Of a stretch of 8,146 bases of DNA, positions 415-8,146 are shown one piece after another. This stretch comes from Gammaproteobacteria bacterium (GTDB taxonomy: Bacteria > Pseudomonadota > Gammaproteobacteria > Enterobacterales > Alteromonadaceae). The notes beneath the pieces were generated by a model. The model worked only from the letters and a program-made list of their open reading frames with translations, searched no databases and was not told the origin of the DNA. Each line of letters starts with the position of its first letter. The first letter of the stretch is position 1. The translations under genes and the position numbers were made by a program. The stretch lies in the NCBI GenBank assembly GCA_023481025.1, contig JAMCWV010000259.1:1-8146 (forward strand), written 5' to 3'.

Positions 415-2673
415 ATGCTAAACAAAGCGCTCGAGATTTCGCTAAACGATGCATTTCGTTTAGCACGTGAACGCCAACACGAGTTAATGACCGTTGAACA
501 CCTACTCGTCGCATTGCTAGATAACCCAGAAGCTTCGGAGGCTTTACGTGCCTGCGGAATCGATTTTGCTGGGTTAAAAAGCGACCTATTAACTTACATC
601 GATCGCTCTACCCCTCGCTTTCCTGAAAATGACCTTGGTGAAACTCAACCAACACTTGGTTTTCAGCGCGTTCTGCAACGTGCCGTATTTCATGTCCAAT
701 CTTCAGGCAACTCAGAAGTTACTGGCGCAAATGTGTTAGTGGCAATTTTTAGTGAACAAGAATCTCAGGCTGTTTATTTACTGAATAAGCATGAGGTGAC
801 CCGGCTCGATGTTGTGAACTTTATTTCACACGGTATTTCTCGTGTTGAAGAAGAAAAAGGGGCACCGATAGACTCGACAGAAGCGACTGGCGAAACGGAA
901 GAGCAAAGTTTTCTTGCGCGTTTTTGCGTGAACCTCAATCAACGCGCGAAAGCGGGCAAAATTGATCCGCTTATTGGTCGTGACTTGGAATTGGAGCGCA
1001 CGGTTCAAGTACTCTGTCGGCGGCGTAAAAATAATCCGCTACTGGTCGGTGAAGCGGGCGTGGGTAAAACTGCGATCGCGGAAGGTTTGGCATGGAAGAT
1101 TGAGCAGGGTGATGTTCCAGAAGTCATGGCTGACGCGGTGATTTACAGTCTCGATATGGGCGGTCTTTTGGCGGGTACGAAATACCGTGGTGACTTTGAG
1201 AAGCGTTTTAAAGCCTTGTTGAAAGAGATTACGAAGCAGCAACATGGCATTTTATTTATCGACGAAATTCATACGATTATTGGTGCTGGCTCTGCCTCCG
1301 GCGGCGTCATGGATGCATCAAACCTATTGAAACCTCTACTCTCGAGCGGCGAGCTCAAATGTATTGGTTCAACGACGTATCAAGAATATAAGAATATTTT
1401 TGAAAAGGATCGGGCGTTGGTACGGCGCTTCCAGAAGATTGATGTGACGGAACCTTCAGTCGAAGATACGACACGAATTCTTTTAGGGTTGCGTGACAAA
1501 TATGAAGCGCATCATGGGATTCGCTATACGCAACCGGCCATTCGGGCAGCTGCTGAATTAGCGGCGAAATATATCAATGACCGTCATTTACCAGACAAAG
1601 CAATTGATGTGCTCGATGAAGCAGGAGCGAGTCAACGTTTGTTACCGCAGTCAAAACGGAAGAAAACGATTGGTGTTGGTGATATTGAAGCGATTATTTC
1701 GCGGATTGCTCGTGTTCCTGCGCAGTCGGTTTCGCGCAACGATCAAAGCATGTTGAAGCAACTCGACCGTAATTTGAAGATGGTGGTATTTGGGCAGGAC
1801 AATGCAATTGACTCGTTAGTTGCAGCGATTCGGCTGACACGCAGCGGACTAGGCGGAGAACACAAACCGGTCGGCTCGTTCCTATTCGCTGGCCCAACGG
1901 GAGTGGGCAAGACGGAAGTCACACAACAATTAGCCAAAGCTATGGGTGTTGAGTTACTGCGGTTTGATATGTCCGAGTATATGGAGCGCCACGCAGTAAG
2001 CCGTTTAATCGGTGCGCCACCGGGCTATGTCGGTTTCGAACAGGGTGGTTTGCTGACCGAGGCCGTAATTAAAAACCCATACAGTGTCGTGTTGCTCGAT
2101 GAAATCGAAAAAGCACACAATGATATTTTTAATATCTTACTGCAAGTTATGGATAACGGCACGTTAACCGACAACAACGGGCGCAAGGCGGATTTCCGCA
2201 ATGTTGTGCTGGTGATGACGACGAATGCGGGTGTGCGTGAAACTGAGCGCAAGTCCATTGGTTTCCAAGAGCAAGATCACAAGTTCGATGTCATGTCGGA
2301 AATTAATAAGGTATTTACGCCGGAGTTCCGTAACCGATTGGATGGTATTATTTGGTTCGATCATTTGAACACCGAAGTCATCCTGCAAGTGGTTGATAAA
2401 TTTATTTGTGAGCTACAAGCACAATTGGACAAGAAAGGTGTGTCACTGGAAGTGGAAAGTCCAGCTTTAGCTTGGTTAGCTGAAAAAGGCTATGATCGGG
2501 CGATGGGCGCTCGACCGATGACGCGTGTAATCCAGGAACATCTTAAGAAACCGTTGGCTAATGAAATTTTATTTGGGCGCCTAAGTCAGGGCGGAAACGT
2601 TCAAGTTTGTCTAAATGTTGAAACGGATTCTCTCGACTTTGTCTATGACAATGCCAGTGAAGCAGTGACTTAA
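415..2673 (+). CDS. clpA: ATP-dependent Clp protease ATP-binding subunit ClpA
   Basis: ClpA is the hexameric AAA+ unfoldase that threads substrates into the ClpP peptidase in the cytosol. The product has 752 residues against 758 in E. coli. Residues 1 to about 145 form the N-domain of two Clp repeats that docks ClpS. An acidic linker follows (about 143-163). The D1 ring has Walker A GEAGVGKT at 212-219, Walker B with Asp283-Glu284, and a pore loop KYRG at 256-259. The D2 ring has Walker A GPTGVGKT at 493-500, Walker B LLDE ending at Glu563, and the pore loop GYVG at 537-540. An IGF tripeptide at 615-617 is the loop that plugs into ClpP, so this is a ClpP partner and not ClpB; the long ClpB middle coiled coil is absent. 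No catalytic residue is missing. Its C-terminal tail is less conserved than the rest, as usual. Confidence 0.98.
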
Positions 2674-5012: not shown

Positions 5013-6098
5013 TTAACGCGTAATTGCGTCAGCTGGATCCATGTACTCCAAGCCAAGTTTCTCACCTAAGTCGTCGTGTACGGCTTTATAAGTGATGTAA
5101 CCTTTATGCATGTTCAAGCCATTGCGCAAATTGACGTCATTGGCCATCGCTGCGAGGCCTTTATTCGCTAAAGCAATACCATAAGGCAAAGTGGCGTTGT
5201 TTAAAGCAATGGTTGAAGTCCGTGCGACACCGCCTGGCATGTTAGCAACACAGTAGTGCACCACATCGTCAACGACGTAGGTTGGATCTTGGTGGGTGGT
5301 CGCTTTCGAGGTTTCGAAACAGCCGCCTTGGTCAATCGCAACATCAACGAGAACTGAACCAGGCTTCATATTCTTGATGTGCTCACGGCTTAATAATTTC
5401 GGTGCAGCTGCGCCTGGAATTAAGACCGCGCCAACGACTAAGTCGGCTTCACGTGAATATTTGTCGATGGCGTCAACGGTTGAGTAGACGGTTTTGACCC
5501 GACCCATGAAAATATCATCAAGTTCACGTAAACGCGGCAATGAGCGGTCGAGGATAGTGACGTCAACGTTTGTTACCGCAATCAAAACTTTGCCAGGAGC
5601 AACGCCAGGAACGCCACCGAGTAACGTACCGCTGCCACCTTGAATTTTTTCCAAGTTGTGCGCGCCTGCTTGAATTGACATGCGTCCAGCTACTTCGCTC
5701 ATTGGCGCGAGTAACGGCAAACCGCCACGATTATCAGTGACCGTCTCGTAAGCAATCGCTGTGACGCGAGCCTCGGCGAGCAAGCGCGTTTGCTCAGGGT
5801 CTGGTGCAAGGTGCAAGTAGGTATAAAGAATCTGGCCTTCACGAAGTTGTTTACATTCGCCCGGTTGCGGCTCTTTCACTTTCACGATCATGTCGGCACT
5901 GGCGAAAATCTCTTCCGGTGTATCAACAATTCGTGCACCTGCAGCTTCGTAATCTTCGTTGGTAAAACCGATGGCGACACCACCATCGCGTTGAACCATG
6001 ACTTGATGGCCGTGAGCGACATACTCGCGAACCGCTGCCGGGGTTAAGCCGATGCGATACTCATGGTTTTTAATCTCTTTAGGTACACCGATCAACAT
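5013..6098 (-). CDS. ald: alanine dehydrogenase with its NAD-binding glycine loop missing
   Basis: Ald family enzymes reversibly deaminate L-alanine to pyruvate and ammonia with NAD. The start is taken at ATG 6098 because MLIGVPKEIKN is the family N-terminus and GAGG (minus reading of 6108-6111) lies nine bases upstream; a longer frame to 6137 adds 13 unrelated residues. The product has 361 residues, about 14 fewer than expected. Active-site residues are all in place: Arg15, Lys75, His96 and Asp256 (equivalent to Asp270 of the M. tuberculosis enzyme), and the ribose-binding Asp184 (Asp198). However, where the family reads KVxIIGGGVVGTNAA and a helix before DVTILD, this protein reads KVLI-AVTNV-DVTILD (residues 171-184). 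The glycine loop and helix are gone in frame. NAD binding is therefore doubtful. No frameshift or stop is present elsewhere. It is divergent from lrp. Confidence 0.9.
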   Translation of the reverse strand: MLIGVPKEIKNHEYRIGLTPAAVREYVAHGHQVMVQRDGGVAIGFTNEDYEAAGARIVDTPEEIFASADMIVKVKEPQPGECKQLREGQILYTYLHLAPDPEQTRLLAEARVTAIAYETVTDNRGGLPLLAPMSEVAGRMSIQAGAHNLEKIQGGSGTLLGGVPGVAPGKVLIAVTNVDVTILDRSLPRLRELDDIFMGRVKTVYSTVDAIDKYSREADLVVGAVLIPGAAAPKLLSREHIKNMKPGSVLVDVAIDQGGCFETSKATTHQDPTYVVDDVVHYCVANMPGGVARTSTIALNNATLPYGIALANKGLAAMANDVNLRNGLNMHKGYITYKAVHDDLGEKLGLEYMDPADAITR

Positions 6099-6126
6099 AA
6101 TAAAAAGCCTCAAGTCAATGTAATGG

Positions 6127-6160
6127 TGAATGGCCATTGACGTGCATCAACAGCCATTCA
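6127..6160 (-). promoter_or_regulatory. 34-base dyad in the ald leader, possible operator or switch
   Basis: TGAATGGC (6127-6134) and GCCATTCA (6153-6160) are perfect inverted repeats. Inside them TTGA (6137-6140) and TCAA (6147-6150) form a second stem level, with CA/CA as the only internal mismatch and a six-base centre. A competing pairing is possible: GTCAATG (6114-6120) with CATTGAC (6135-6141), next to the ald ribosome site at 6108-6111. It also contains the palindrome AATGGCCATT (6129-6138). The symmetry suits either a dimeric regulator such as Lrp or an RNA structure near the start. It does not closely match the E. coli Lrp consensus. Confidence 0.45.
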
Positions 6161-6181
6161 GGAACGCGTAATGTGCGGCAA

Positions 6182-6187
6182 AGTATA
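6182..6187 (-). promoter_or_regulatory. possible ald promoter -10 element
   Basis: On the minus strand TATACT matches the -10 consensus at five of six positions. No good -35 box is found 16 to 18 bases upstream, so if real it probably needs an activator; Lrp, encoded divergently next door, would be the natural candidate. The leader would be about 75 bases and would include the 34-base dyad. Confidence 0.32.
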
Positions 6188-6232
6188 GCTTAACCGCGGC
6201 GCGCATTACTGACTTTTTTAGTGGCGTATAAA

Positions 6233-6257
6233 AGCATAAAATGCTATAAATAATTTA
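6233..6257 (+). promoter_or_regulatory. lrp promoter region: extended -10 with AT-rich dyads
   Basis: TGCTATAAA at 6242-6250 is an extended -10 element (TGn plus TATAAA, five of six). It overlaps two small dyads: AGCAT-aaa-ATGCT at 6233-6245 and TAAAT-a-ATTTA at 6247-6257. No convincing -35 box is seen. Lrp represses its own gene in E. coli, and AT-rich dyads over the -10 would fit such feedback, but this is inference. The leader would be short, about 28 bases. Confidence 0.42.
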
Positions 6258-6284
6258 TTAAAAAGCAGAAATGACTGGTAATTT

Positions 6285-6767
6285 ATGTCAAAAGAGCATG
6301 AAGTCACTATTGATCGGCTCGACCGGAAAATTTTAAGAATCCTGCAAGAACGTGGTCGAATTTCGAATGTACAATTATCCAAAGAAGTCGGACTAAGTCC
6401 AACCCCTTGTTTGGAAAGAGTTCGTAAACTTGAGCGCAATGGCGTAATAAAAGGCTATTATGCCAGAATAGACCCAGATAAATTAGGTTCTCCGTTACTG
6501 GTTTTTGTCGAGATTACGTTGAGTAAAACGTCGTCGGATGTATTTGCAGAATTCAGTGCTGCAGCGCGAAAAACCGACGAAATTTTAGAGTGCCATCTCG
6601 TTTCTGGTGACTTTGATTTTCTTTTGAAAGCGCGAGTTGCCGATATGGCCGCTTATCGTAAACTCCTAGGCGAAACGTTACTGAATATGCCGGGCGTCAA
6701 TGAATCGCGCACCTATGTCGTCATGGAAGCCGTAAAACAAGAGAACAAAGTCGTAATAAAAGGCTGA
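6285..6767 (+). CDS. lrp: leucine-responsive regulatory protein Lrp
   Basis: Lrp is a DNA-binding, DNA-bending regulator of amino-acid metabolism that assembles into octamers and hexadecamers and senses leucine or alanine. The 160-residue product aligns with E. coli Lrp (164) almost throughout. The N-terminal winged helix has its helix-turn-helix near residues 25-58 (RISNVQLSKEVGLSPTPCL). The RAM effector domain follows from about 70, with LLVFVEITL, ECHLVSGDFDFLLK around 103-115 and YRKLLGETLL at 124-133. This closeness and the ftsK synteny indicate the global Lrp and not a local AldR-type paralogue. The ribosome site is weak. It diverges from ald, a gene often controlled by Lrp-family proteins. 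No terminator is visible before ftsK, so some read-through is likely. An exact 14-base repeat (6443-6456 and 6752-6765) encodes VIKG twice, once at the C-terminus. Confidence 0.97.
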   Translation: MSKEHEVTIDRLDRKILRILQERGRISNVQLSKEVGLSPTPCLERVRKLERNGVIKGYYARIDPDKLGSPLLVFVEITLSKTSSDVFAEFSAAARKTDEILECHLVSGDFDFLLKARVADMAAYRKLLGETLLNMPGVNESRTYVVMEAVKQENKVVIKG

Positions 6768-6865: not shown

Positions 6866-8146
6866 ATGACTGGATTGCAGCGACTACTTGAGGCTGGACT
6901 CATTCTCTGCGGCGCATTAGCGATATTTTTGCTGACCGCGCTATTGTCATTTGATCCTGCCGATCCCAGTTGGTCACAAACAGGGTACACCCAAGAGATC
7001 CAGAATGCGGCCGGTGCAATCGGTGCGTGGTTCGCCGATATTCTCTTATTTTCCTTTGGTGCACTTGCGTACTCAATTCCCTTCGTCGTGGTTGGTTTCG
7101 GCTATGTGGTGTTTCATCGTCCGCGGCAGTTGTTGAGTGTCGACTACCTGACACTTGGTCTGCGCCTATTAGGTATTATCCTCTTTCTTGCCGGAGCGAC
7201 CGGCATTGCCGCCTTGAACTTTGCCGATATTTACTATTTTCCAGCTGGGGGGCTTGTTGGCAGCGTCATGATTGCCGCGATGTTGCCGTATTTTAACCTT
7301 GGTGGCACCACGCTATTACTTCTGACCTTTATTCTCACAGGGATTACTTTAATTACCGGTTTGTCATGGATAGCTTTAGTCGACAAAATGGGCGCAGCGA
7401 CCATTGCTGCAGCACTTTGGTTGGCAAAACCGATAAGCTCCCGTTTAGGAGAAAAACCGGCCACAGTTAAACCCAAAAGCAGTTCACCTACGAAAGGAGA
7501 ACCACCGGCCAAGAAGTCGAGTTGGTTTACCGGGTTATTCAGCCGTTGGTTCTCGCGTCACGACAAAGCAAAGCAAGAGAAAAAAGTTGAGCCTGACGAC
7601 ACTTGGGATGCCTTGCCAGTGGGCGGTCAACATGTCATCGAAGATGACAATTTGCCATCATTTTCCACTCGTGATGCGATTGATGATGTGTCTGACGAGG
7701 CGCTTTTAGCTGACTTTGATGATGACGATAACGTACCGCAAATGGCAGCCAAGAAGCCAATGCCACAAGCGGCAAAGGCGCCGGTAAGCAAACCGCAACC
7801 GATAAAAACAAAGGCAGAGCCAACAGAGAAGAGCGCGCAATGGGTCAGTGAACTACCGTCGATTCAACTGTTGGATCGTGCTAACCGTTCTGGGAATCCC
7901 ATTAGTCAGAGCGAACTCGACGAAGTAAGCCGCACCGTCGAGTCGGTGTTGAAGGACTTTGGCGTTGAGGTGCAGGTCGCCGGTGTTCAACCTGGGCCGG
8001 TGGTCACTCGTTTTGAATTAGATCTCGCACCGGGCGTGAAGGTGAGCAAAATTTCTAACTTGGCAAAAGATATAGCTCGCTCATTGTCAGCCATTGCGGT
8101 GCGTGTGGTTGAGGTCATTCCGGGTAAATCGTATGTTGGTCTAGAG
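6866..8146 (+). CDS. ftsK: DNA translocase FtsK, N-terminal part (runs off the window)
   Basis: FtsK anchors at the division septum and pumps chromosomal DNA toward the dif site. The frame is open from ATG 6866 to the last base (427 codons), so the gene is cut by the window end. GGAG at 6858-6861 gives a good ribosome site. Residues 1 to about 172 form the membrane domain with four likely helices (about 8-28, 57-83, 97-119, 146-172); SFDPADPSWSQT (28-39) and the WFADILLFSFG segment match E. coli. A linker of about 155 residues (173-328) carries basic (about 203-241) and then acidic (about 258-288) stretches. It is far shorter than the roughly 600-residue E. coli linker, typical of smaller FtsK proteins. 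The motor alpha-domain starts near LPSIQLLDRAN (330-340) and includes GPVVTRFELDLAPG and VRVVEVIPGKSYVGLE. The Walker motifs and DNA-reading gamma domain lie beyond the window. Confidence 0.96.
   Translation, partial: MTGLQRLLEAGLILCGALAIFLLTALLSFDPADPSWSQTGYTQEIQNAAGAIGAWFADILLFSFGALAYSIPFVVVGFGYVVFHRPRQLLSVDYLTLGLRLLGIILFLAGATGIAALNFADIYYFPAGGLVGSVMIAAMLPYFNLGGTTLLLLTFILTGITLITGLSWIALVDKMGAATIAAALWLAKPISSRLGEKPATVKPKSSSPTKGEPPAKKSSWFTGLFSRWFSRHDKAKQEKKVEPDDTWDALPVGGQHVIEDDNLPSFSTRDAIDDVSDEALLADFDDDDNVPQMAAKKPMPQAAKAPVSKPQPIKTKAEPTEKSAQWVSELPSIQLLDRANRSGNPISQSELDEVSRTVESVLKDFGVEVQVAGVQPGPVVTRFELDLAPGVKVSKISNLAKDIARSLSAIAVRVVEVIPGKSYVGLE

Follow-up and report, generated by a model that had tools for sequence, protein, structure and literature searches.

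The ald locus and its shortened cofactor loop

The window, i.e., the whole stretch of DNA analysed (8,146 bases), contains clpS-like, clpA, infA-like, aat, trxB, ald, lrp and ftsK-like frames. The products of ald, lrp, trxB and aat each pass the cut-off of a family model, and the names clpS-like, clpA, infA-like and ftsK-like are our own presumptive assignments. Three of the genes are referred to throughout:

415..2673, plus strand: clpA, an intact open reading frame of 752 codons, aligned to the related locus L111 (see below) without a coding indel
5013..6098, minus strand: ald, the alanine dehydrogenase gene with the replaced loop, 361 codons plus stop, with its ATG at 6098
6285..6767, plus strand: lrp, the divergent neighbour of ald, NF008370 Lrp equivalog, 256.8 bits against a cut-off of 233

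The open frame of ald extends further upstream, where the first ATG lies at 6137. The spacer between the divergent lrp and ald genes is 186 bases long (6099-6284), and an lrp gene placed divergently beside another gene is a common layout for this regulator and its target.

The 361-residue Ald scored 451.1 bits with TIGR00518, the alaDH equivalog model (cut-off 391.85), over residues 1-347 of 361, and both the AlaDh_PNT_N and AlaDh_PNT_C domains were found. Equivalents of Arg15, Lys75, His96 and Asp270 of the Mycobacterium tuberculosis enzyme are present as R15, K75, H96 and D256. The likeness to the TIGR00518 Ald proteins therefore covers the whole gene apart from the patch described below, with the catalytic residues retained, whereas the difference is that the window Ald is without the entire glycine loop and the first helix of the NAD fold. 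The minus-strand translation reads ...APGKVLI-AVTNV-DVTILDRS..., which leaves five residues (AVTNV) between KVLI and DVTI against 19 in relatives, and the glycine-rich NAD loop and the helix following it are absent. The original prediction, made from the letters of the window, had described AVTNV in place of about 19 residues, and both the translation and the surveys of loci and proteins bear this out. Its offset of 14 residues is also correct, since R15, K75 and H96 keep the family numbering and D184 and D256 correspond to D198 and D270 of the intact protein P0002. A frameshift had been rejected, and rightly: six frames were read and none gives the glycine motif.

The loop is 19 residues long in 110 of 111 surveyed loci, a set that holds duplicates (at least two pairs from the same place, L001/L082 and L008/L081), and the lone exception is the window Ald. 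Among the matches listed by the protein searches it is 19 residues long in 222 of 224 proteins, the exceptions being the window Ald (5) and P0140 (10). Two such searches were performed, one using the whole protein, for which the best 120 of 7,999 candidates were examined, and one using only residues 158-198 to draw out carriers of the junction, for which the best 120 of 1,169 were examined; among the matches listed by either search, no other protein has the junction. Complete loss of the glycine loop and first helix was found in 0 of the other 110 loci and 0 of the 223 other listed proteins. The view that loss of exactly the cofactor loop is unusual stands, with one locus in 111 having an AVTNV-type five-residue loop, and close relatives with the short loop, which together with proven NAD-dependent activity had been named beforehand as evidence against the prediction, were not found among the 110 other loci, all having 19 residues. 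P0140 (364 aa, from a single JGI contig of 10,573 bases) is an Ald with a 10-residue NAD loop, IGGGVSGLGA, instead of 19 residues, which may reflect a separate in-frame deletion or an artefact.

Except for the window Ald itself, the best database match among those listed was P0002, which was found on 7 contigs. The first 173 and the last 183 residues are common to the two proteins, i.e., 356/356 residues are identical outside the block, and the sole difference is AVTNV for IGGGVVGTQAAKMAVGLGA.

The same picture was obtained at the DNA level. The nearest genome found, G299, contains a syntenic locus (L111) with 87.4% DNA identity over the window, the ald gene of which has a normal loop, and the alignment of the two opens a gap of 42 bases in the window near 5572. 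Among 17 genomes of the genus to which G299 belongs, 11 have a match that crosses the junction and exceeds the query by 42 bases; five ald matches end before the junction and one genome, G328, gave no match. According to one alignment, the coding indels relative to L111 are only the ald patch and one of 3 bases, near 7717, in the ftsK-like frame. Other short indels relative to L111, at about 2681 (8 bases), 2761 (1), 6101 (1) and 6841 (2), are intergenic.

Similarity between the ald loop and clpA

A point overlooked by the original prediction is that the five loop residues are encoded by 15 bases that occur exactly in clpA. The features concerned are as follows:

5565..5579, minus strand: the patch of 15 bases, the AVTNV codons, in place of 19 codons for the strand end, GGGVVG and the helix
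5580..5588, minus strand: microhomology on the 5′ side of the patch (coding strand), 8/9 bases common to clpA
5562..5564, minus strand: microhomology on the 3′ side of the patch, 3/3 bases (GAC) common to clpA
1631..1657, read on the minus strand: the putative donor stretch in clpA, 26/27 identical to 5562-5588, with 19 bases exact

The interval 5562-5582 originally given for the altered loop is correct, and the patch lies inside it. The 15-mer of the patch has exactly one further copy in the window; it lies 3,931 bases away inside clpA (1634-1648), on the same strand and in the same orientation. Read on the plus strand, the patch and its edges give QRLLPQSK, a ClpA peptide. Outside 5562-5588 the similarity to clpA drops to 2/11 bases on the 5′ side and 6/17 on the 3′ side. 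The TN of AVTNV had been ascribed to the GTNA of the family; this is wrong, as the nearest relatives have GTQA at this place and the letters of TN are antisense clpA.

Recurring 15-mers start at 10 of the 8,132 positions in the window, and all of them belong to the ald/clpA pair. This pair is also the longest exact repeat of the window (19 nt), and direct repeats in 300 dinucleotide shuffles did not exceed 17. As a control with real DNA, an exact repeat of at least 19 nt was found in 11 of 73 stretches of equal length taken from the fetched loci; ten of these 11 repeat pairs have their copies within 261 bases and one has them 7,246 bases apart. Since such repeats are frequent in real DNA, the length is not decisive, and it is the coincidence with the replaced block that carries the weight. 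The longest inverted repeat of the window, with overlaps excluded, is 12 nt; the shuffle counts for inverted repeats (1/300 reached 19) were set aside because they are thought to contain self-overlapping palindromes.

The specificity of the match was examined at both lengths. When three mismatches were permitted, two or more matches to the 15-mer were obtained in 17 of 200 shuffles. The exact 15-mer of the patch was found once among 1,172,817 fetched bases, in the clpA of locus L113. G299 has the 15-mer within two mismatches at 12 places (two with one mismatch, one of them clpA, ten with two, and none exact), and the reversed 15-mer, used as a control, at 22 places. These counts from G299 and the shuffles indicate that the 15-mer alone cannot fix the donor genome-wide. 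Across the same 17 genomes, which total about 47 Mb when their rounded sizes are added up, the 27-mer was found within three mismatches at a single place, the clpA of G299. Because the reading frame of the window clpA is intact, the donor would have been copied and not moved.

These results bear on the explanation that ald suffered a plain in-frame deletion followed by point changes, and that the match to clpA is coincidental. Shortening of the loop without such a patch does exist, as judged from the protein sequence P0140 (10 residues). Against this, the chance of an exact 15-mer in the same 8 kb is approximately 1.5e-5 (2 x 8,131 / 4^15, assuming equal base use), the clpA match extends into both flanks of the patch, and the 27-mer has its single near match in 17 genomes within clpA. 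We consider a coincidence of this kind hardly credible.

Junction scores were compared with a null in which two positions were drawn at random 200,000 times; pairs less than 40 bases apart (about 1%) were skipped yet counted in the total. The 5′ score was reached by 93 and the 3′ score by 3,954 of the 200,000 draws; both observed scores were reached together by 5/200,000 and their sum by 22/200,000. The ald gene of L111 has GTTCTGATC and GCTGATGTC at the junctions, and that of a further locus, L114, has GTTTTGATC at the junction. Going by these letters, ald itself accounts for much, though not all, of the junction match, including much of that on the 5′ side, and part of the junction letters may have arrived together with the patch. 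The placement of the junctions rests on L111, at about 87% DNA identity.

The window clpA and the ald copy differ by one base, which lies inside the 5′ microhomology. At this base L111 clpA agrees with window ald. A second base sets L111 clpA apart from window clpA and window ald alike, so that L111 clpA also matches the window ald stretch at 26/27 bases. The ald copy thus carries one letter of each clpA allele (window positions 1650 and 5581). Judging from these letters, the source may have been a clpA allele that unites them, which the ald stretch would match at all 27 bases, or the odd T would be ald's own. The donor stretch is itself variable, the window clpA and the L111 clpA (2734-2760) differing at 2 of 27 bases.

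A different explanation is that the junction was made in vitro, by template switching of the polymerase during amplification or library preparation, or arose when a chimeric read was assembled at low coverage. The patch is on a single contig, the 8,146-base window itself, this contig is short, and the normal-loop protein that is otherwise identical is on 7 contigs, all of which speaks for an artefact. On the other hand, the two junctions are 15 bases apart and the sequence re-enters ald in register, for which one chimeric jump is insufficient. The junction matches of 7-9 and 3 bases would be too short for a k-mer assembly path, there are no coding frameshifts elsewhere relative to L111, and the frame is preserved (1 in 3 by chance). 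We consider an in-vitro origin unlikely, though it is the one competing explanation with appreciable weight, and we put the allele being real at about two in three.

Consequence for the protein and copy number of ald

In M. tuberculosis Ald, the NAD-binding domain is described as residues 129-308, and Thr178, Asp198 and Lys203 are given among the residues that contact NAD (PMC4691113). P0002 has its aspartates at the corresponding numbers, D198 and D270, which puts position 178 and the GGGVVG (175-180) inside the lost block; the equivalent of Asp198 survives in the window Ald as D184. In a structure model of the window Ald, the strands 171-174 and 181-184 are joined by a loop with no helix between them, and pLDDT is below 50 at 176-179. 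Averaged over ten-residue blocks, pLDDT ranges from 78 to 98 in residues 1-120, from 53 to 78 in 121-200 and from 65 to 89 in 201-300, so the lower confidence starts before the patch, and these values are for the window Ald folded by itself, without an intact control. Being without the NAD pyrophosphate loop, the window Ald is strongly expected to have lost NAD binding and activity. Mutation of His96 or Asp270 is reported to abolish Ald activity (PMC4691113), and both equivalents are kept here. With AVTNV in place of 19 residues, the gene would be a damaged ald allele and not one encoding a working Ald.

The search for ald over 395 genomes gave a match in 389. Each of the 13 genomes with at least 87% identity has one ald match, indicating that the source cell is probably without a second copy. 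The window ald is probably a null allele of recent origin, in a gene of which close relatives carry one copy. The original prediction had proposed a recent deletion inactivating NAD use; recency is supported by the 356/356 identity outside the block, and inactivation would follow from the missing loop, but the event is not a simple deletion.

The prediction had also offered a protein of changed function, binding pyruvate or alanine without oxidising it. On a reading of this kind, the shortened loop would belong to a protein, either an enzyme or a binder, that has taken on a new role for which NAD is not needed. The preserved frame, the retained equivalents of Arg15, Lys75, His96 and Asp270 and the score above the NCBIfam cut-off are in line with this idea. 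Against it, no second carrier was found in the best 120 of 7,999 matches, the best 120 of 1,169 or the other 110 loci, the rest of the protein is undiverged, and the letters of the loop are antisense clpA. We regard this reading as very improbable.

Proposed event and known counterparts

The reading we favour, with a probability of roughly 0.66, is that a single templated patch mutation occurred recently and probably yielded a null ald allele. In one event, 19 codons of ald would have been exchanged for 15 bases copied from clpA, either by a template switch with return or by short-patch double illegitimate recombination (SPDIR), and the exchange would have preserved the reading frame by chance. 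The donor is intact, the recipient stretch has given way to a shorter exact copy on the same strand, and both edges show microhomology. Template switching and SPDIR leave this footprint alike and are indistinguishable here.

If the templated patch is real, a whole cofactor loop can vanish in one step with the frame unbroken, and a curated family model still accepts the gene without it, as TIGR00518 was passed. A broader proposal, which we regard as improbable, is that wild marine bacteria actively undergo templated patch replacement between unrelated genes lying kilobases from each other, and that this is common enough for single contigs to contain in-frame chimeric coding segments; if true, conserved proteins could exchange whole loops in a single step by patch replacement.

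The patch would be a further instance of an already known kind of mutation. SPDIR starts from single-stranded DNA at replication forks in living cells. In a 2016 study in PNAS, part of a gene is reportedly replaced by a short segment from elsewhere in the genome that has microhomology on either side. Two features of SPDIR, an insert identical to an ectopic donor (15/15; 26/27 with flanks) and an intact donor locus, are found in the present case. The likeness lies in the ectopic short segment that replaces a stretch of a gene between microhomologies, whereas the ald case differs in being a natural singleton that arose without laboratory selection, with its donor 3.9 kb off, and in being known from sequence alone. 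Events of the SPDIR type are supposed, in the account of PMC7192050, to be insignificant in natural populations.

In microhomology-mediated break-induced replication (MMBIR), single-stranded 3′ tails are described as annealing at microhomology and priming synthesis of low processivity, with several switches (PMC2621351). MMBIR and microhomology template switching, as presented in PMC2621351 and PMC8421209, share with the ald patch copying primed at a few bases of microhomology and a templated insert. The screen described in PMC8421209 sought inverted copies within 100 bases, whereas the copy in ald is direct, not inverted, and lies 3.9 kb from its putative template.
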